Assembly: GCF_019008365.1 (NCBI RefSeq)
Contig: NZ_JAHHUL010000008.1
Location: 1-64,000, forward strand
Direction of reading: 5' to 3'
DNA length: 64,000 bases
Source of the DNA: Phosphitispora fastidiosa
Lineage (GTDB): Bacteria > Bacillota > Thermincolia > Thermincolales > UBA2595
The notes beneath the pieces were generated by a model, which had not been told where the DNA came from, searched no databases, and worked only from the letters and a program-made list of their open reading frames with translations. The translations under genes were made by a program, and so were the position numbers. Positions 26,862-52,934 of this stretch are shown piece by piece (position 1 is the first letter of the stretch; the number at the start of each line of letters is the position of its first letter).

Positions 26862-28240
26862 TGAGTAATATTGTACTACAGATTTGTGAAAAATTCATTG
26901 GTGAAGTTTTAGGTGTTTTCGGACAGGACCAGGTCAAAAAAATCGAAGACATGGAAACAGGCTTAAAAGAGAAAACAGATAGTTTTGTTTTGGATGTGAT
27001 GAAGGTATATTTGGAGGCCCTGGATCAGGCGATAGTCGATGATAAGGCAGGTCGCAGAAGAAAAGGAATAGTCATTGAACGCAGGTCTGACAAAAGGGAG
27101 CTATATACGCTGTTTGGCCCGTTAAAGTTTGAGAGGACCTACTTTTATGATAAGCGGAACCGGGAATACGGGTATTTGCTTGATAAGGCGGCAGGTCTTG
27201 ACGGGTATGAACGCATATCAGGGAATGTGGCCAGGGTTTTGGTGGAACATGCGAGTGAATCTTCATATGGAGAGAGCAGCAGGCATGTAAGTGGTGGGGA
27301 AATCAGCAGGCAGACAGTGATGAAAAAGGTCAGGCTGCTGAATGGACTGGAGATAAGCCGACCGGAGAAAAAGAGAAGTGTGCGGGTTTTACATGTCGAA
27401 GCAGATGAGGACCACGTAGCGATGCAGGATGGGACTAATGCAATAGTGCCATTGATCAGCATACATGAGGGCATAGAAAAACGAGGCCGGCGTGGCAACT
27501 GCGTAAATATACATCACATATGCAGCTATGGGAAGAATACTGAGGATTTATGGGTCGAAGCGGCAACGTGGATAGATGATAATTATGAAGCAGAAGCAAT
27601 AAAGCGAATATACCTGCATGGAGACGGAGCAACCTGGATAAAGCGGGGGCGAAACTGGCTGCCCAAAGTGAAAATGGTGTTGGACAAATATCATCTTAAC
27701 CGGTCAATTATTGAAGCAACCGGAAGACAGAAGGAGCGCCGGGGAGAGATATATTATGCACTCAGGGAAGGCGATAAGAAAAGGTTCAGGGAAATAGTCC
27801 ACCAGATGTATGAAACCGCTGTGAGCAAAAATGAGCAGGAGAAAATCCATAATTTCCAGAAGTACATAAAAAACAACTGGGAAGGAATTGAGATATACAG
27901 TAAAGAAGTGTGTGGAGGCAGTTGTACCGAAGGTCACGTAAGCCACGTTTTATCAAGCCGTTTAAGCAGCCGGCCGATGGGCTGGAGCAAGACCGGATTA
28001 AAGGCCATGTCTGAATTACGGGCTTTTTGCAGTAACGGTGGCCGGGTAGAAGTCAAACACCTGAAGGCTGAAAAGCCTTTGCCCTATAAAGTGAGAAAAA
28101 AACAACTGACAAAGGTAGCGAAAGTACTTCAAAAATATGAACTGGACAAACTCGACAATATGCCAGTGATAAGCATCGGGAAGGTGCTCTATATCCGTAG
28201 ACTTCTAAATACCATAAAGAATGGTGGACTTGGTTTTTAA
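26852..28240 (+). CDS. ISLre2 family transposase (UPF0236)
   Basis: A 462-aa transposase. Family features are the N-terminal CEKFIGEVLGVFGQDQ helix, the TLFGPLKFERTYFYDK block, HVEADEDHVAMQDG, and YLHGDGATWIKRG followed by LDKYHLNRSI. Start at ATG 26852 is preferred because GAAGGAG is directly upstream and the family begins there; a frame extension to 26816 lacks a site. Full length, so probably active, though translation is guarded by the 5' hairpin. Confidence 0.9.
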   Translation: MSLVSNIVLQICEKFIGEVLGVFGQDQVKKIEDMETGLKEKTDSFVLDVMKVYLEALDQAIVDDKAGRRRKGIVIERRSDKRELYTLFGPLKFERTYFYDKRNREYGYLLDKAAGLDGYERISGNVARVLVEHASESSYGESSRHVSGGEISRQTVMKKVRLLNGLEISRPEKKRSVRVLHVEADEDHVAMQDGTNAIVPLISIHEGIEKRGRRGNCVNIHHICSYGKNTEDLWVEAATWIDDNYEAEAIKRIYLHGDGATWIKRGRNWLPKVKMVLDKYHLNRSIIEATGRQKERRGEIYYALREGDKKRFREIVHQMYETAVSKNEQEKIHNFQKYIKNNWEGIEIYSKEVCGGSCTEGHVSHVLSSRLSSRPMGWSKTGLKAMSELRAFCSNGGRVEVKHLKAEKPLPYKVRKKQLTKVAKVLQKYELDKLDNMPVISIGKVLYIRRLLNTIKNGGLGF

Positions 28241-39503: not shown

Positions 39504-40010
39504 ATGAAACAGATACTGGTTAAAACAGAACGCTGTGTTGGCTGCAAATCATGTGAACTAGCCTGTAGTGCAGTTCATTCCGGAAGCAAGGATTTTTTGG
39601 CCGCTGTTCTGAATGGGGAGCGGCCGGTCAGAAGAGTTGCTGTGGAGACAAACCGGGAGAACACAGTTAATATCCCGGTCCAATGCCGGCATTGCCGCGA
39701 GCCCAAGTGTGTCACTGCCTGCATGACCGGCGCCATGCATTTGGACGAAGCGACAGGTTTGGTGTTAAACCGCGAGGAGAAGTGTGTCGGCTGCTGGATG
39801 TGTGTTATGGTCTGTCCGTACGGGGTTATTGTCCCCAATGAAGAGGAGAAAAAGGCTGTCAAGTGTGACCAGTGTCTCTCCGGAGGGCATGACCCGGCAT
39901 GTGTTAAAGCCTGCCCTACCGGAGCCATAGAATTTATTGAAATCAGTGGGTTTGATAAAACCAGAAGAAAAGAATTCCTGACAAAATTTGTTGCGGGAGG
40001 GGAGGCTTGA
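39504..40010 (+). CDS. cooF: CooF-type 4Fe-4S electron-transfer protein
   Basis: A 168-aa polyferredoxin that takes electrons from CO dehydrogenase. Four cysteine clusters: CVGCKSCELAC (about 12-22), CRHCREPKC...C (about 61-73), CVGCWMCVMVCP (about 97-108) and CDQC..GGHDPACVKACP (about 122-143), enough for four 4Fe-4S centres. GAGGGGG precedes the ATG. It ends three bases before the cooS start. Confidence 0.92.
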   Translation: MKQILVKTERCVGCKSCELACSAVHSGSKDFLAAVLNGERPVRRVAVETNRENTVNIPVQCRHCREPKCVTACMTGAMHLDEATGLVLNREEKCVGCWMCVMVCPYGVIVPNEEEKKAVKCDQCLSGGHDPACVKACPTGAIEFIEISGFDKTRRKEFLTKFVAGGEA

Positions 40011-40012
40011 GT

Positions 40013-41920
40013 ATGGATTATTTGAAGAAAACCATTGACAGCGCTGCGGGGAAAATGATTCAAAAAGCTGCCAAAGAAGGGATCGAGACAGTTTGGGACC
40101 GTTTTGAGGCCCAACAGCCCCAGTGTGGTTTTGGGCTGACCGGACTTTGCTGCAGGCACTGCAACCAGGGGCCGTGTCGTATCGACCCATTTGGCGATGG
40201 CCCGCAATATGGGGTTTGCGGCGCAGATGCCGACCTCATTGTGGCCCGCAATTTACTGAGGCAGGTGGCAGCCGGAGCAGCGGCCCATGTTGACCACGCT
40301 TATGAGGCAGTGGAGACTTTGGCTGCTGTTGCCGGGGGAAGTGCCGCATATTCTATCAAAGACCGGAACAAGCTTTTGGCAGTTGCCGGGAAGTTAGGGA
40401 TCGAGACAGAAAACAAATCTGATAATGATATTGCCAAAGAAATCGTCGGTATTGCCTGGTCTGATTTCGGTAACCATTCTGATTCCGCTCTGAAATGGCT
40501 TGTGGCTACAGCGCCGCAAGAAAGGGTAGAAACATGGAGCAAGTTAGGGGTATTGCCCCGAAATCCTGACCGGGAAATCAGGGAAGCCCTGCACCAGACT
40601 ACCATGGGTATGGATGCCGACCCGGTAAACCTGATCCTGGCAACTGTAAAGCAGGGGCTTGTTGACGGTTATGCCGGCTTACATCTGGGCACCGACATCC
40701 AGGATATTTTATTTGGCACACCATCTCCGGTGGTCGCTGAGGCCAACCTGGGAGTACTCCGGGAAGACCATGTCAACATTGTGGTCCATGGTCACGAACC
40801 CATGTTATCGGAAAAAATCGTCGAGTGGGCCCGGAAACTCTCCGGTGAGGCTCTGGCTGTGGGGGCCAAGGGAATTCAACTGGCAGGTGTCTGCTGTACC
40901 GGCAACGAAATCCTGATGCGTCAGGGTGTGGCTATGGCCTCCAACTTTTTGGCCCAGGAACTGGCTATTATAACCGGGGCTGTTGATGCCATGGTTGTAG
41001 ATGTTCAGTGTATCATGCCTTCTCTGGCCAGAGTGGCTGCCTGTTACCATACCAAGATATTTACCACATCACCAATAGTGAAAATACCGGGCGCCGAACA
41101 TGTTGACTTCAATCTTGGTGAAGCCGACCAAAAGGCTGAAGAAATTGTGCGCAAAGCTATTGAGAATTACAAAAGGCGTGATCAGAGCCGGGTTGATATC
41201 CCCAATGTAAAAACTAAAATGATGGCAGGCTTCAGTGTGGAGGCAATAGTTGCCGCATTGGCAAAATTGGATGCCGATAATCCGTTGAAACCCCTGGTAG
41301 ATAACATTGCCAATGGAAATATTCTTGGCGCAGTAGGCACTGTCGGCTGCAATAACGTCAAAGTGGCCCAGGATTCCTTCCATGTTAATATGGTGAAAGA
41401 ATTGATAAAAAATAATGTTCTGGTGGTAACTACCGGGTGTTCTGCTCAGGCTCTGGCTAAAGCCGGTCTGATGACTCCCGAAGCAACTGAGAAATATGCC
41501 GGGGATACCCTTAAGGCTGTGCTCACCGCTGTTGGAAATGCCGCCGGAATCGGCGCCCCGCTGCCTCCGGTACTTCATATGGGGAGTTGTGTGGATAATT
41601 CCCGGATTGGGGATTTGTTAAATGCACTGGCCGGTTATCTCAAAGTACCCATCAAAGATTTACCGGTAGCCGCTTCCGCGCCTGAGCACCAGCATGAAAA
41701 AGCCCTCAGCATCGGAACCTGGGCTGTTTCTCTCGGGCTGCTGACTCACCTTGGCATTGTCCCACAGGTTATTGGAGGCAAAATGGTTACTGAGATTCTT
41801 ACCGGGGATACTGCCGAGAGCCTCCTTGGCGGCAGGTTCTATGTGGAAACAGACCCCATTAAAGCAGCCCATGGGCTGATAGACCATATCAAATCCAAAC
41901 GCAAAGCCCTTGGCATATAA
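40013..41920 (+). CDS. cooS: anaerobic Ni-Fe carbon monoxide dehydrogenase CooS
   Basis: A 635-aa catalytic subunit oxidising CO to CO2 at a Ni-4Fe-4S C-cluster. N-terminal CGFGLTGLCCRHCNQGPC provides D- and B-cluster cysteines. AAHVDHA, GVCCTGNE, VDVQCIMP, TGCSAQ and MGSCVDNSR carry C-cluster and proton-path residues. ATG 40013 behind GGGAGGGGAGG is preferred to TTG 40007. Size and partners indicate the monofunctional respiratory/NADH-producing type rather than the ACS-bound form. Confidence 0.96.
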   Translation: MDYLKKTIDSAAGKMIQKAAKEGIETVWDRFEAQQPQCGFGLTGLCCRHCNQGPCRIDPFGDGPQYGVCGADADLIVARNLLRQVAAGAAAHVDHAYEAVETLAAVAGGSAAYSIKDRNKLLAVAGKLGIETENKSDNDIAKEIVGIAWSDFGNHSDSALKWLVATAPQERVETWSKLGVLPRNPDREIREALHQTTMGMDADPVNLILATVKQGLVDGYAGLHLGTDIQDILFGTPSPVVAEANLGVLREDHVNIVVHGHEPMLSEKIVEWARKLSGEALAVGAKGIQLAGVCCTGNEILMRQGVAMASNFLAQELAIITGAVDAMVVDVQCIMPSLARVAACYHTKIFTTSPIVKIPGAEHVDFNLGEADQKAEEIVRKAIENYKRRDQSRVDIPNVKTKMMAGFSVEAIVAALAKLDADNPLKPLVDNIANGNILGAVGTVGCNNVKVAQDSFHVNMVKELIKNNVLVVTTGCSAQALAKAGLMTPEATEKYAGDTLKAVLTAVGNAAGIGAPLPPVLHMGSCVDNSRIGDLLNALAGYLKVPIKDLPVAASAPEHQHEKALSIGTWAVSLGLLTHLGIVPQVIGGKMVTEILTGDTAESLLGGRFYVETDPIKAAHGLIDHIKSKRKALGI

Positions 41921-45968: not shown

Positions 45969-46307
45969 ATGATGAATGAAAGGCTGTTTGGAATGGAAGC
46001 CGATTTCTTTAAGGCCCTTGCCCATCCGACCAGGGTACGGATATTAAAGCACCTGATTGATGGAGAGAAATGTGTTTGTGAGTTTACCGAGGACTTGGAT
46101 GTGGAGCAGTCAAACATGTCCCAGCACCTGGCAATTCTGCGTAAACAGAATATCGTAGCCAGCCGGAAAGAGGGTCTAAAGGTCATATATTCGGTAATCT
46201 ATCCCCAGATCTTTGAAATACTGGACTTAGTGGAAGATATCCTGGTTACCCAGGTTAATGAAACTTTAGAGCTATTAAGTAAGAAAGCAAAAAGCAAAAG
46301 GAGGTGA
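45969..46307 (+). CDS. arsR: ArsR/SmtB family metalloregulator (first locus)
   Basis: A 112-aa winged-helix repressor: ALAHPTRVRILKHLIDGEKCVCEF with a CVCE metal-site motif in the alpha-3 helix, then the recognition helix QSNMSQHLAILRKQNI. Two consecutive ATGs; the first (45969) is annotated. Overlaps the thioredoxin gene region by the AGGAGG inside its last codons. It should release the palindromic operator on binding As(III)/Sb(III) or a related ion. Confidence 0.9.
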   Translation: MMNERLFGMEADFFKALAHPTRVRILKHLIDGEKCVCEFTEDLDVEQSNMSQHLAILRKQNIVASRKEGLKVIYSVIYPQIFEILDLVEDILVTQVNETLELLSKKAKSKRR

Positions 46308-46312
46308 TTAGC

Positions 46313-46558
46313 TTGGATATTAAAGTATTGGGTGCGGGGTGTGCTAATTGCATCAAACTTGAACAGATGGTTTTTGATGTACTGGCAGAACAGAACCTGG
46401 ATGCCAGTGTCACTCATGTAACAGATTTTAAAGAAATAATGTCTTTTGGTGTTATGTCAACTCCTGCTCTGGTAATCGACGGCCAGGTAAAATTGTCGGG
46501 CGGTGTGCCTTCTAAAGCAAAGCTGACAGAAGTTATTACAGAAGCTGCCAAAGGCTAA
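46313..46558 (+). CDS. small redox-active thioredoxin-fold protein
   Basis: An 81-aa protein from TTG 46313, seven bases after AAAAGGAGG (GTG 46304 is the alternative). The N-terminal strand carries GAGCANCIKLE, a CxxC redox pair, and a conserved cis-Pro segment GVMSTPALVIDG follows. The family of small disulfide-redox proteins is often encoded beside ArsR and COG0701 permeases, presumably to handle or reduce the metalloid or keep the permease cysteines reduced. Confidence 0.85.
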   Translation: MDIKVLGAGCANCIKLEQMVFDVLAEQNLDASVTHVTDFKEIMSFGVMSTPALVIDGQVKLSGGVPSKAKLTEVITEAAKG

Positions 46559-46575: not shown

Positions 46576-47592
46576 ATGCAGATTTTAACCCTGATATTTA
46601 GTTGGCTTAATGACCAGCTTTTGAGAATGACATGGCTTTCAGAATCGGTAAGTCTGTTGGTGGAAAAGGTATTTGGTTTGTCTGTCCAGGAGAGACTTGG
46701 GGGGAGCATCCAATTTTTCATCTATGATACGATTAAGATTTTCATCTTATTGTCAGTGCTTATTTTTGGCATATCGTACATTCAAAGTTACTTTCCGCCG
46801 GAAAGAACCAAAAAGATTTTGGGCAGGGTGGGAGGTATCAAAGGTAATATTCTCGGCGCATTATTGGGAACAATTACCCCATTCTGAAGCTGTTCCAGTA
46901 TACCGATATTTATCGGTTTTACTTCGGCAGGTCTGCCGTTGGGAATTACCTTTTCATTCCTGATATCCTCGCCACTTGTAGATTTGGCATCAATATTGAT
47001 ATTAATGTCATTTTTCGGAGCTAAAATTGCTATAGCTTATGTCATTGTCGGTTTGGTTTTGGCAGTTGCCGGCGGCACAATTATTGACAAGTTAGGTCTG
47101 GAAAAGCATGTAGAGGGTTATGTCAGGGAAATTGAAAATGTCGACTCGGTAGTTGTTGAGAAGACACGTGAAGAAAGAATAGCCTTTGCCGCGGATCAAG
47201 TCAGAGACATTGTCAAAAGAGTATGGCTGTATGTGCTGGTTGGTGTCGGGATAGGGGCGGGAATCCACAACTGGATTCCCCAGTCAATTATAGAAAATGT
47301 GGTTGGGGCCAATAACCCGTTTGCGGTGATACTTGCAACAGTAGTAGGCATTCCCATGTATGCCGATATCTTTGGCACTTTGCCGATAGCTGAAGCGTTA
47401 TTAGCTAAAGGGGTTGGCGTCGGCACCGTAATGTCCTTCATGATGGCGGTTACAGCTTTATCGCTGCCTTCCATGATTATGCTGAAAAAGGTGGTCAAAC
47501 CCAAACTCCTGGCAGTCTTCTTCACGATAGTAGCGGTTGGAATTGTTGTTATGGGTTACTTTTTTAATGCAACATCATATCTTTTCGGATAG
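46576..47592 (+). CDS. COG0701/ArsP-like permease with in-frame TGA (candidate selenoprotein)
   Basis: A 338-codon frame broken only by TGA at 46885-46887, between GALLGTITPF and SCSSIPIFIGFTSAG. The family normally reads PFCSCSSIP here, so TGA takes the place of the first conserved Cys, which in ArsP-type permeases takes part in metalloid handling. Both flanking parts align to the family without shift. About eight to nine transmembrane helices. If TGA is read as selenocysteine the protein is full length; otherwise a 103-residue stub is made. It follows arsR and the CxxC protein closely. Function: probable efflux of organo-arsenic or a related metalloid. Confidence 0.8.
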
Positions 47593-47667: not shown

Positions 47668-48534
47668 CTAATCACCCAGCAGCTGCAGCACTCCCTGTGG
47701 GGCACGGTTTGCCTGAGCCAGCATAGCCAGTGAGGCCTGTTCAATAATCTGACTCTTTGTATACTGTACCATGGATGAAGCAATGTCAGTATCTCTGATC
47801 CTGGACTCGGCAGCAGTCAGATTTTCTTCTGCAACCCTAAGATTGGAAATGACAGATTCCAGCCTGTTTTGAGTGGACCCTAAATTAGACCGTTCATTGG
47901 ATACATCTGCAATGGCTTTGTCGGTAACCCTCAGGAACTGTTCTGCTTTGGCGCTGTCCGACAAATCAATAATCCGGTCACTCCCCGGTCCGCCTGCAAT
48001 TAACCCGGAGGCCTCCCAGACAAAGTAGCCGAAAGAAGGTATCAAAGACCTTTTAATATTCAACTCCAGGGTATGGCCCTCATTTGCCCCGACTTGAAAT
48101 ACATATGGGTCCGCGTCAGCTCCCAGAAATATTTTTTTGGTATTAAATTCTGTTTGAATGGTAATCCTCTCGAGTTCATCAATCATTTTGGCTACTTCAA
48201 GCTCAATTTTTCCACGGTCTTCTCTTGTATTAATATCACTGGCTGCCTGTACTGTCAGCTCACGCATTCTCTGCAGGATAGAATGCTGTTCATTCAAAGC
48301 CCCTTCTGCTGTCTGAATCAATGAAACAGCGTCCTGGGCGTTTCTGGCAGCCATTCTCATGCCTCTTATCTGAGAGCGCATTTTTTCCGAAATACCCAAG
48401 CCGGCGGCATCATCCCCAGCCTTATTTATCCTCTTCCCTGAAGACAGTTTTCCCATGAACTTATTCTTCTTTGAAGTAACCGTTTTCAGCCTGTTATAAG
48501 AAAATAATGCCGCCGTGTTATGGTTAATTCTCAT
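47668..48534 (-). CDS. flagellin
   Basis: A 288-aa filament protein with conserved D0/D1 ends: MRINHNTAALFSYNRL, KLSSGKRINKAGDDAAGLGISEKMR, and the C-terminal TAAESRIRDTDIASSMVQYT with ANRAPQGVLQLL. The central variable part is short (about 140-205). AAGGAGG lies 11 bases before the ATG; an out-of-frame ATG intervenes. It stands alone among metalloid genes, away from any flagellar cluster in the window. A sigma-D promoter was not recognised. Confidence 0.95.
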   Translation of the reverse strand: MRINHNTAALFSYNRLKTVTSKKNKFMGKLSSGKRINKAGDDAAGLGISEKMRSQIRGMRMAARNAQDAVSLIQTAEGALNEQHSILQRMRELTVQAASDINTREDRGKIELEVAKMIDELERITIQTEFNTKKIFLGADADPYVFQVGANEGHTLELNIKRSLIPSFGYFVWEASGLIAGGPGSDRIIDLSDSAKAEQFLRVTDKAIADVSNERSNLGSTQNRLESVISNLRVAEENLTAAESRIRDTDIASSMVQYTKSQIIEQASLAMLAQANRAPQGVLQLLGD

Positions 48535-48876: not shown

Positions 48877-49242
48877 ATGAAAAAAATTGCAGAATTCTAT
48901 AAGGCTTTAGGAGATGAAATCAGATTAACAATATTAAATATGCTGTCAGAACAGGAGATGTGTGTTTGTGAAATCTTTGATAAACTTGATATATCTCAGC
49001 CGGCAGTCTCCCATCACCTCAAAATCCTCAGGCAGGCTGGGCTGGTAAAAGACAGCAAAGAGGGGAAATGGATATACTATTCTTTGAATGGCAGTGTTTT
49101 TCAGGAGATCTTTCAGGATGAGAAGGTGGAAACAATCCGGTGTTATGCGGAACCTATCCGAAAGAAACTGGAAAATCTGCCTCGTTCCCAGGTAAGAACT
49201 GACCCGGCTGTTTGTGAAAAATTAACTGCGAAAAACCGATAG
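48877..49242 (+). CDS. arsR: ArsR family arsenic-responsive repressor (second locus)
   Basis: A 121-aa protein. LGDEIRLTILNMLSEQEMCVCEIFDKL contains the Cys-Val-Cys metal site in the DNA-binding region; the recognition helix is SQPAVSHHLKILRQAGL. The C-terminal extension has two more cysteines (Cys88 and Cys114 region) that might add thiol ligands. GGAAGGGAG precedes the ATG. First gene of an arsR-acr3 operon. Confidence 0.92.
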   Translation: MKKIAEFYKALGDEIRLTILNMLSEQEMCVCEIFDKLDISQPAVSHHLKILRQAGLVKDSKEGKWIYYSLNGSVFQEIFQDEKVETIRCYAEPIRKKLENLPRSQVRTDPAVCEKLTAKNR

Positions 49243-49281: not shown

Positions 49282-50352
49282 ATGGCGCAAAAAGAGGCAA
49301 GATTGTCTGTGCTGGACAGACTGCTGACTCTCTGGATCTTCCTGGCAATGGCTGTTGGGGTGGGTATTGGGTACATTTTCCCCGGGGTAGCTGATCTTTT
49401 AGACAGGTTATCTGTGGGGACCACTTCCATACCCATTGCTGTAGGTCTGATTATCATGATGTACCCGCCCCTGGCTAAAGTGAATTACCGGGAACTGGGC
49501 AAGGTTTTCCGAAATACCAGGGTGCTGGGATTATCACTGGTACAAAACTGGATTATCGGGCCTATCCTGATGTTTGTGTTAGCCGTAGTGTTTTTACAGG
49601 ATTACCCTGAATATATGGTTGGTCTCATTTTAATCGGACTGGCCAGGTGTATCGCTATGGTTATTGTGTGGAACTCCCTGGCGAAAGGTGATACTGAATA
49701 TGCCGCTGCTCTAGTGGCGTTTAACTCAATATTCCAGGTAATTTTCTACTCGGTGTATGCCTATATTTTTATTACGGTGCTGCCGGAATGGCTGGGGCTT
49801 AAGGGAATGGAAGTAGATATAACCATGGGTGAGGTAGCTAAGAGTGTTGTCATTTACCTGGGGATTCCCTTTGCTGCCGGCATGCTGACCAGGCTGTTTC
49901 TGGAACCGGCCAAGGGGAAGGAATGGTATGAAAAAACCTTTGTGCCCAAGATCAGTCCCCTGGCCCTGATTGCACTGCTCTTTACTATTGTGGTAATGTT
50001 TTCCTATAAAGGGCAGTTAATCGTACAGCTGCCGTTGGATGTGGTGCGTATTGCCATCCCGCTGCTGATTTATTTCGTGCTCATGTTTACTGTCTCTTTT
50101 TTCCTTAGCAATAGGATGGGGGTCAACTATGGCCAAACAACCAGCCTGTCCTTCACTGCGGCCAGCAACAACTTCGAGCTGGCAATAGCCGTTGCCGTAG
50201 CGGTATTTGGTATTGAATCAGGGCAAGCCTTTGCCGCGGTAATCGGCCCCCTGATTGAAGTGCCGGTGATGATAGCCCTGGTTAATGTGGCCCTTGCCTG
50301 GGGAAGAAAATACTTCACCAGAGAGGGTGAAGTTATCCGAACCCGGGGGTAA
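49282..50352 (+). CDS. acr3: Acr3-type arsenite efflux permease
   Basis: A 356-aa protein with ten predicted transmembrane helices that exports As(OH)3. The family cysteine lies in [19 protein letters not shown] (helix 4), and [20 protein letters not shown] (helix 9) is the other signature block. AAGGAGG precedes the ATG, 39 bases after arsR. Together they give arsenite resistance; no arsC reductase is in the window. Confidence 0.95.
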
Positions 50353-50921: not shown

Positions 50922-52934
50922 ATGCCAAGATTTAAAGACCCAAACCACACCTGCAAACCGTCAGATTTCCCGAGAGTTGTTGACCCCAAAAATGTTAAAC
51001 GTTCTATCGACCCAGCTGCTTTGGAGATGATTGACAAGGCTCAGGAAGAGGGCATCCAGACTACTTTTGACCGGTTTTTAGCGCAGCAGCCCCAATGCCA
51101 GTTTGGTTACAAAGGGATTTGCTGCAGATTTTGCATGATGGGTCCCTGCCGGCTTACTGCCGATACCGGACCTAAGAGCAAAGGTATTTGCGGTGCCGAT
51201 GCCTGGACTATTGCCGCCAGAAGCACAGGTACAATGCTGTTAACAGGATGTGCTGCCCACTGTGAACATGGCCGGCATATTGCCCATTCCCTGTTAGAAC
51301 TCTCAGAAGGGAAAGCTCCTGATTATAAAATTACCAGCCCTGAAAAACTGAAAAGTGTTGCTGCCAATGTAGGTATTGAAGCTGAAGGCAAGTCCGATCT
51401 TGAGCTTGCTAAAGAAGTGGCAGAACTAGCCTTAAAAGACTTTGAACTTCTGCCTGGTATGGGCGAATGTACCTGGACAACTTCGATGGTCACTGAAGGC
51501 CGCAGGGAAAAGTACCGGGCTTGCAACATTATGCCAAATGGAATCCAGTCAGCTATGGCAGACCTTCTTGCACAAGCACATGTTGGACAGGATAATGACC
51601 CTGTCAACATTACCTTCAGCGCTCTCCGGGCCGCATTGGCGGATGTTACCGGCATGAAGATTGCGACCGACCTGTCGGATGTTATCTTCGGAGTTCCGGA
51701 GCCTGTTGTTTCAGAAGCTAACATGGGTGTAATGAAGGCAGACCATGTAAATATAATTCTTCACGGACATAACCCCATTTTAAGTGAAATGATTGTTGCC
51801 GCTGCCAGAGAATTAGACGGAGAAGCAAAAGAAGCGGGCGCTGCCGGAATCCAGTTATCCGGTATCTGCTGTACAGGAAACGAAGTACTTATGAGACAGG
51901 GTGTGCCAATTTGTACATCTTTCTCATCCCAGGAACTCGCTATTACAACCGGCGCTGTTGATGCTATGGTTGTTGACGTGCAGTGCATTATGCCCGGAAT
52001 TGTACAGGTAGCCAAGTGCTTCCATACTAAGATTATATCTACTCAGGATATTGTTAAGCTTCCCGGCTCCATGCATGTTCCCTTTAATGTAGAAACAGCC
52101 ATGAATGATGCTCAGGATATAGTAAGGATTGCAATTGATTCATATAAAGAGCGTAAAGACAAGGCTGTTAAAATTCCGCAGTATAAAGAGAAAGTTGTAG
52201 CCGGCTTTAGTCTGGAAGCTATGTATGATATCTTGGGCAAAGTAAATGCAGACAAACCTGTCGGCGTTCTTGTTGATGCTATCGAAGCAGGACAAATTAA
52301 AGGTGTCGCCTTGTTATGCGGCTGTGAAAACCTGAAGACAATACAAAATGAGGCCCACATTACCATTACCAAAGAACTCCTGAAAAATGACGTCTTTATT
52401 ATAGCTACCGGATGCTCCGCTCAGGATATGGCCAAGTTTGGCATTATGAATCCTGCCAACAGGAAAGGACTCTGCGGAGACGGCCTAAATGCCTTCCTGG
52501 ATACACTGGAAGAGAAGTCCGGTATTGAATTGCCTGCAACATTCCACATGGGTTCCTGTGTAGATAATACACGTTGCTCTGACCTCTTTATGGATATGGC
52601 TAACTATATGGGTGTAGATACTCCTAAAGTACCGTTTGTAGCATCGGCTCCTGAAGCCATGAGTGGTAAAGCTGTTTCTATCGGGACCCATTATGTGACT
52701 TTAGGAGCGCCCGTTCATGTCGGCACAATGCCTCCTGTTGAAGGTAGTGATCTGTTCTACAGCATTACTACCCAGATTGCCAGTGATGTCTATGGCGGAT
52801 ACTTCATTTTTGAAATGGACCCCAAGCTTGCAGCACAAAAGATATTGAATGCTCTTGAATACAGAACCTGGAAATTAGGGGTTCATAAGAAGACTGCTGA
52901 AAAATTCGAAACTAAACTGTGCCAGAATTATTAA
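50922..52934 (+). CDS. acsA: CO dehydrogenase subunit of the CODH/ACS complex, AcsA
   Basis: A 670-aa Ni-CODH. The N-terminus CQFGYKGICCRFCMMGPC gives D- and B-clusters; AAHCEHGRH, GICCTGNE, VDVQCIMP, LLCGCENL, TGCSAQ and MGSCVDNTRC hold C-cluster ligands. Length equals the ACS-linked beta subunit (about 674 aa in Moorella) and it is followed directly by acsB. It reduces CO2 to CO, channelled to AcsB, or runs the reverse. AAGGAGG precedes the ATG. Confidence 0.96.
   Translation: MPRFKDPNHTCKPSDFPRVVDPKNVKRSIDPAALEMIDKAQEEGIQTTFDRFLAQQPQCQFGYKGICCRFCMMGPCRLTADTGPKSKGICGADAWTIAARSTGTMLLTGCAAHCEHGRHIAHSLLELSEGKAPDYKITSPEKLKSVAANVGIEAEGKSDLELAKEVAELALKDFELLPGMGECTWTTSMVTEGRREKYRACNIMPNGIQSAMADLLAQAHVGQDNDPVNITFSALRAALADVTGMKIATDLSDVIFGVPEPVVSEANMGVMKADHVNIILHGHNPILSEMIVAAARELDGEAKEAGAAGIQLSGICCTGNEVLMRQGVPICTSFSSQELAITTGAVDAMVVDVQCIMPGIVQVAKCFHTKIISTQDIVKLPGSMHVPFNVETAMNDAQDIVRIAIDSYKERKDKAVKIPQYKEKVVAGFSLEAMYDILGKVNADKPVGVLVDAIEAGQIKGVALLCGCENLKTIQNEAHITITKELLKNDVFIIATGCSAQDMAKFGIMNPANRKGLCGDGLNAFLDTLEEKSGIELPATFHMGSCVDNTRCSDLFMDMANYMGVDTPKVPFVASAPEAMSGKAVSIGTHYVTLGAPVHVGTMPPVEGSDLFYSITTQIASDVYGGYFIFEMDPKLAAQKILNALEYRTWKLGVHKKTAEKFETKLCQNY

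Follow-up and report, generated by a model that had tools for sequence, protein, structure and literature searches.

One gene in the genome of Phosphitispora fastidiosa, an ArsP-like permease gene close to genes for arsenic resistance, is interrupted by a TGA codon. This raises the question of whether the codon ends the protein or is read as selenocysteine (Sec) and, if it is read as Sec, which signal in the RNA directs this and what the protein transports. The gene lies in a window of 64,000 nucleotides, which is the whole stretch of DNA analysed and to which the positions below refer unless a contig is named, and the source genome is a 4.09-Mb draft. The closest named record carrying the permease gene is that of Thermincola ferriacetica.

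The permease gene and its in-frame TGA

The permease gene (46576–47592, forward strand) starts with an ATG at 46576 and runs for 103 codons to the TGA at 46885–46887, then for 234 codons to a TAG stop at 47590–47592, without a frame shift. The initial annotation had described an otherwise intact frame of 338 codons with one TGA, as found here, with a count of 235 codons after the TGA that should be 234. The product, 338 residues with predicted Sec at residue 104 (U104), matches PF03773 at residues 44–331 (E = 1.4e-66) with a score of 225.1 bits, above the curated cut-off of 32.3.

The TGA has the position of the first Cys in the PFCSCSSIP motif of relatives, and the predicted motif is PF-U-S-C-SSIP. 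The annotation had made the same assignment, and the aligned Cys is indeed invariant in an alignment of 29 sequences, with TGA read as Cys. Sec104 and Cys106 are the sole selenol or thiol residues in the translated protein. As had been suggested, Sec at this position may raise reactivity toward arsenic or selenium compounds.

Downstream of the TGA, dN/dS is 0.078, 0.067, and 0.069 in comparisons with three Sec-bearing relatives (G002, G001, and G005, respectively), and the changes are mostly at third codon positions. Purifying selection acts on the permease codons 3’ of the TGA.

The same genome encodes two more PF03773 permeases that lack the TGA, at G000:C18:20084-21004 (53% identical) and 27109-27990 (32% identical), so Cys-type paralogs are present alongside the Sec form.

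Recurrence of the TGA and exchange with cysteine

Across 22 genomes of the phylum, 25 homologous genes were found to have TGA at exactly the aligned codon, and among them they have 23 distinct downstream sequences. These came from several searches. In the first comparison, of 118 permeases, 107 had Cys at the site (TGT or TGC) and 11 had TGA; this alignment of homologs, proposed as a check when the gene was annotated, yielded nothing else. Among 100 relatives, TGA was present in three family members with 82–96% identity (G001, G002, and G005), and G009 and G036 (ca. 48–50% identity) carried a TGA at this codon too. When 398 genomes of the phylum were scanned for the pattern, 15 matches turned up, of which 11 proved to be homologous permeases whose aligned codon is TGA. 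The remaining matches (L136, L137, L143, and L149) were dropped as not homologous permeases, and a TGA in another genome (L041/G091) was dropped because it sits 5’ of the gene start. A scan of 113 genomes in one class added 14 loci, each confirmed to have one internal stop. Each of the Sec genes contains just one internal TGA; the scattered nonsense changes that had been named as evidence against Sec were not seen in these homologs. Three genomes have two Sec-permease genes each – G152 (L138/L150), G458 (L174/L181), and G474 (L177/L182).

On a quick tree of the permeases, the distribution of Cys and Sec takes five changes, of which well-supported branches force at least three. By this tree, Cys and Sec have been exchanged at the permease site at least three times. 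One Cys form, in genome G004, is nested within the Thermincolaceae Sec group, yet this genome has selA and selB. The G004 gene (L020/L133) has TGC at the site and imperfect remnants of both of the hairpins described below, which are expected after reversion from Sec to Cys. In addition, a distant permease subfamily (L153 of G382 and L170-L172; 32% identical) uses Sec in place of the same Cys and has a canonical hairpin with a GGU loop. The Sec permeases of the L153 type probably had an independent origin.

Selenocysteine machinery

The genome encodes the machinery for Sec: selA, selB, a tRNA-Sec with anticodon UCA (selC), and two selD genes were found, all of the sel genes that the initial annotation had proposed looking for. 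The selA gene is present in 22 of the 22 Sec-permease genomes. SelB is above cut-off in this genome and in nine other of the first-found Sec-permease genomes (10 in total). In two genomes with the Cys form (G092 and G015), neither selA nor selB is above cut-off.

Other genes in this genome also have an in-frame TGA. The fdhA genes, with a TGA and a canonical SECIS with a GGUCU loop, served as positive controls. Both selD genes contain one (G000:C26:20485-21408 and G000:C20:1291-2208; L166 and L167), and the first of these adjoins selA and a TGA-containing fdhA. A third, more distant formate-dehydrogenase-like gene (G000:C18:38255-41107; L162) has an in-frame TGA and a loop of the GGUCU type.

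RNA structure downstream of the TGA

Two hairpins follow the TGA on the forward strand, both in the places where they had first been noticed. The near hairpin (46902–46917) has the stem ACCGAT/ATCGGT and the loop ATTT, which begins 20 nt after the UGA. The far hairpin (46925–46938) has the stem CGGCA/TGCCG and the loop GGTC, which begins 42 nt after the UGA. A lower stem (46890–46930), in which CTGTT (46890–46894) pairs with GGCAG (46926–46930), closes the near hairpin and excludes the far hairpin.

Each homolog was compared to recodings that keep the protein, with codons drawn from that gene’s own pool. Over the 45 nt that follow the codon, folding was more stable than in the recodings, with a mean z of −2.1 in TGA genes and −0.55 in Cys genes. 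The near hairpin (6 bp, loop 20 nt out) was complete in 18 of the 23 Sec sequences (3.5 expected) versus 11 of 103 Cys sequences (8.7 expected). A far hairpin – at least 5 bp, GG in the loop, and a loop start 38–46 nt after the UGA – was present in 15 of the 23 Sec sequences (1.0 expected) versus 2 of the 103 Cys sequences (2.8 expected). Both together were found in 14 Sec sequences (0.16 expected) and one Cys sequence, in counts where the synonymous expectations depend on the codon pool of each gene and where related genes are not independent, which makes the associated p-values too small.

In two pairs of the near stem, both partners are third codon positions, so these pairs are not dictated by the protein. 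They are paired in 18 and 19 of the 19 main-type Sec genes, versus 48 and 55 of the 107 Cys genes, and the pair types in the Sec stem vary – AU, GC, GU, and CG at one pair, GC and UA at the other. The near hairpin has wobble-wobble covariation in the Sec sequences, and the covariation counts and slid controls agree. The protein constrains this region to the quasi-palindromic CCN-ATH-TTY-ATH-GGN, which counts against the hairpin reading. The lower stem is within the 45-nt minimum-energy fold, and 97.8% of its cells are paired in 18 distinct Sec sequences; this helix is also common among Cys forms. Judged from these comparisons of sequences, a SECIS-like structure after the TGA is under selection, and is specific to Sec forms.

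The loops fall into several types. Eleven genes, including this permease, have the near loop AUUU, and all 11 have a far GG hairpin, at 40–44 nt. Four genes (G036, G248, and G152 twice) have the near loop GUUC and no far GG hairpin, and four genes with the near loop GUUY have both hairpins. The four L153-type genes of the distant subfamily instead have G-loop hairpins within the canonical range.

The published model of the bacterial SECIS (bSECIS) places the loop 16–37 nt out and requires a G within the first two positions of that loop, and a subset of elements fails it (PMC13188914). Each hairpin of this gene agrees with the model in part. The near loop, at 20 nt, is inside the range and, like the hairpin of a canonical fdhA/fdhF-type SECIS, at the right distance, but AUUU has no G. 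The far loop has GG, and its GGUC resembles the GGUCU of the genome’s own fdhA, but at 42 nt it is beyond the range. A further difference from the fdhA/fdhF type is that the hairpins are in tandem and that the second cannot form together with the lower stem. The initial annotation had doubted both hairpins: its doubt about the distance of the far loop stands, while its discounting of the near hairpin for lack of a G-loop does not, since the near hairpin is under selection and, among the RNA features, the most conserved; selection acts on the far hairpin, too. The far hairpin as the sole SECIS was also rejected, because it is less conserved than the near hairpin and is absent from four genes.

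It is possible, but on the whole unlikely, that the SECIS consists of the near hairpin and lower stem only, with the far hairpin arising only from GC content and the choice of codons. The near hairpin, complete in 18 of the 19 main-type Sec genes, is at the textbook distance; the lower stem makes one long hairpin directly after the UGA; and the near loop of the four genes without a far GG hairpin, GUUC, starts with G. However, the far GG hairpin occurs at ca. 15 times the synonymous expectation in Sec genes with no enrichment in Cys genes, it is found in every gene with an AUUU loop, and the SECIS loops of the genome’s own fdhA and selD genes all begin with GG. The simplest account would be a composite SECIS, in which the near and far hairpins probably act together. 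A switch between the lower stem and the far hairpin is a more speculative addition. This two-hairpin signal is undescribed in the literature searched.

Operon neighborhood

The permease gene is the third gene of what is predicted to be an operon on the forward strand. The first gene (45969–46307) encodes an ArsR/SmtB-type metalloregulator. It is overlapped by the second (46304–46558), just 5’ of the permease gene, which encodes a thioredoxin-like protein of the TIGR00412 MTH895/ArsE family with a CANC motif. Further downstream, also on the forward strand, are genes for a second ArsR-type regulator (48877–49242) and an ACR3 arsenite efflux transporter (49282–50352; TIGR00832, 468.9 bits with a cut-off of 282.8). 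An ArsE-like gene adjoins most Sec permeases, usually directly upstream, and acr3 is near several of them. At Cys-form loci, the ArsE gene is downstream in 66 of 79.

Three other genes of the region were assigned from their sequence only. A flagellin-like gene on the reverse strand (47668–48534) lies between the Sec-permease operon and arsR-acr3, and looks to have been inserted between two arsenic units. Two genes for carbon-monoxide-dehydrogenase-like catalytic subunits (40007–41920 and 50922–52934) flank the region.

Fold, substrate and known relatives

An AlphaFold2 model of the permease (pLDDT 80.8) is a helical membrane protein in which residue 104 lies between helices 87–99 and 105–117. 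VIA-align matched the model to NaS1, INDY, and ArsB-like folds at Z 13–15 (15.4 to NaS1 and 13.3 to ArsB, 10tp), over ca. 280 residues with an rmsd of 4.8–5.4. Foldseek with the same model gave no significant fold match (best E 0.18), and a sequence search of the PDB found no relative of the permease. The model is suggestive of an ion-transporter-like fold (NaS1/INDY/ArsB), and it is plausible that the U-x-C pair at the helix break forms a site for soft metalloids. The likely role, with the substrate predicted from the operon context, is efflux of a metalloid via the U-x-C pair with help from the thioredoxin-like partner.

Several known systems are similar in part. In Campylobacter jejuni, ArsP was shown experimentally to export trivalent organoarsenicals, and arsP and acr3 are together in the ars operon (PMC6205960). 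The P. fastidiosa protein shares the name of ArsP-type permease and the proximity of acr3, while the description of the C. jejuni protein, which was used here in place of its sequence, presents an ordinary permease and does not mention Sec. The best-scoring NCBIfam model is that of SaoE (NF040736), part of the Sec-assisted organometallic (SAO) system, which is also tied to selenoproteins and metalloids. The score of 113 bits is below the cut-off of 325, and here the permease itself is the predicted selenoprotein, whereas SaoE is absent from the list of selenoproteins (PMC13188914). The PF13192 thioredoxin-like selenoproteins Sec.1 and Sec.2 (PMC13188914) share a domain with ArsE; in this operon, however, ArsE keeps its Cys residues (CANC), and the Sec is in the permease.

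Another parallel is the SO_0444 Cu/Zn efflux transporter (NF033936), of which a Sec form (WP_014809615.1) is known from GenBank annotation only and is listed with a UxC motif in Table 1 of a 2026 review (PMC13188914). This form belongs to the same superfamily and has Sec first in the U-x-C motif. The present permease differs in scoring 106.7 bits against NF033936, below the cut-off of 300, in its arsR-arsE-acr3 surroundings, and in its two-hairpin signal. A full-text literature search returned no paper joining a selenoprotein with COG0701, PF03773, or SaoE. Given the listed SO_0444 form, Sec at the U-x-C of this superfamily is on record; in the arsenic-operon subfamily it is not, in the literature searched.

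A superfamily that includes a Cu/Zn exporter with a listed Sec form might suggest that this permease is a selenoprotein for a substrate other than arsenic – Cu/Zn, Hg, or a selenium species. This is rather improbable, as arsR and an ArsE-type gene adjoin the permease gene and acr3 is nearby, both here and in several relatives, and the score against the Cu/Zn model is far short of its cut-off.

Decoding of the UGA

That UGA can be misread by another tRNA, or decoded by a tRNA-Sec charged with Cys, is known in principle. It is very unlikely that the codon is read in one of these ways here (as Trp, for example) to give a selenium-free protein, because the TGA is confined to a position where Cys is otherwise invariant, and selection for SECIS-like hairpins at this site is limited to the TGA genes. 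A true stop, leaving a truncated protein, a decaying gene, or two polypeptides by re-initiation, has next to no probability: the standard code does end the ORF at 46887 and there is an internal TTG start at 46939, but TGA is at the same codon in 25 genes with no other internal stops, dN/dS is 0.067–0.078 beyond it, selA accompanies it in all 22 genomes, the RNA structure is selected, and the recurrence and purifying selection also rule out a pseudogene, a sequencing error, or a split gene.

The permease had been put forward as a candidate selenoprotein. With TGA recurring at the same codon, the sel genes in the genome, a site that holds only Cys or TGA, and a single TGA in each gene, it is almost certainly a real one.

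Proposed mechanism

The explanation as a whole – a Sec permease of an arsenic-resistance operon, decoded by a composite SECIS and exporting a metalloid – is likely. The genes are arranged as arsR, the thioredoxin-like arsE, and the permease gene, and then arsR and acr3. SelB and tRNA-Sec(UCA) would decode the UGA at 46885–46887 as Sec. The near hairpin, always present, would be placed where the ribosome enters, and SelB would find its usual contact in the far GG-loop hairpin; with the 16 nt of the near hairpin folded out, the far loop would be ca. 26 nt from the UGA. Because some bases of the lower stem also belong to the far hairpin, an arriving ribosome that melts the lower stem may free the far hairpin.

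In the protein, whose fold would resemble that of an ion transporter, Sec104 and Cys106 would lie where a discontinuous transmembrane helix is broken. There they would bind a soft metalloid in trivalent form for export, with methylated or inorganic As(III) as the most likely species. The thioredoxin-like partner may reduce the U-x-C pair or hand over the substrate.

A tentative proposal, which could well be wrong, is that the two-hairpin signal represents a distinct class of bSECIS. In this class, a near hairpin without a G would shorten the path to a GG-loop hairpin 40–44 nt out, the arrival of the ribosome would switch the lower stem into a SelB-binding hairpin, and the signal would serve a Sec permease of arsenic operons that has evolved recurrently.

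Significance

Under the standard code, gene prediction truncates these permeases at codon 103, and the Sec forms are therefore easily missed. With them, the predicted selenoproteome gains a membrane transporter of arsenic operons. The pattern of SECIS elements suggests why some of the predicted bacterial elements break the published rules, which a subset fails (PMC13188914). The Cys and Sec forms are also a natural set of pairs – for example, the Cys form of G004 and the Sec forms of G005 and G000 are 82–87% identical – that bears on the role of selenium in metalloid transport. An anaerobic, Thermincola-type bacterium and many of its relatives appear to place selenium in the predicted substrate site of an arsenic-cluster pump.
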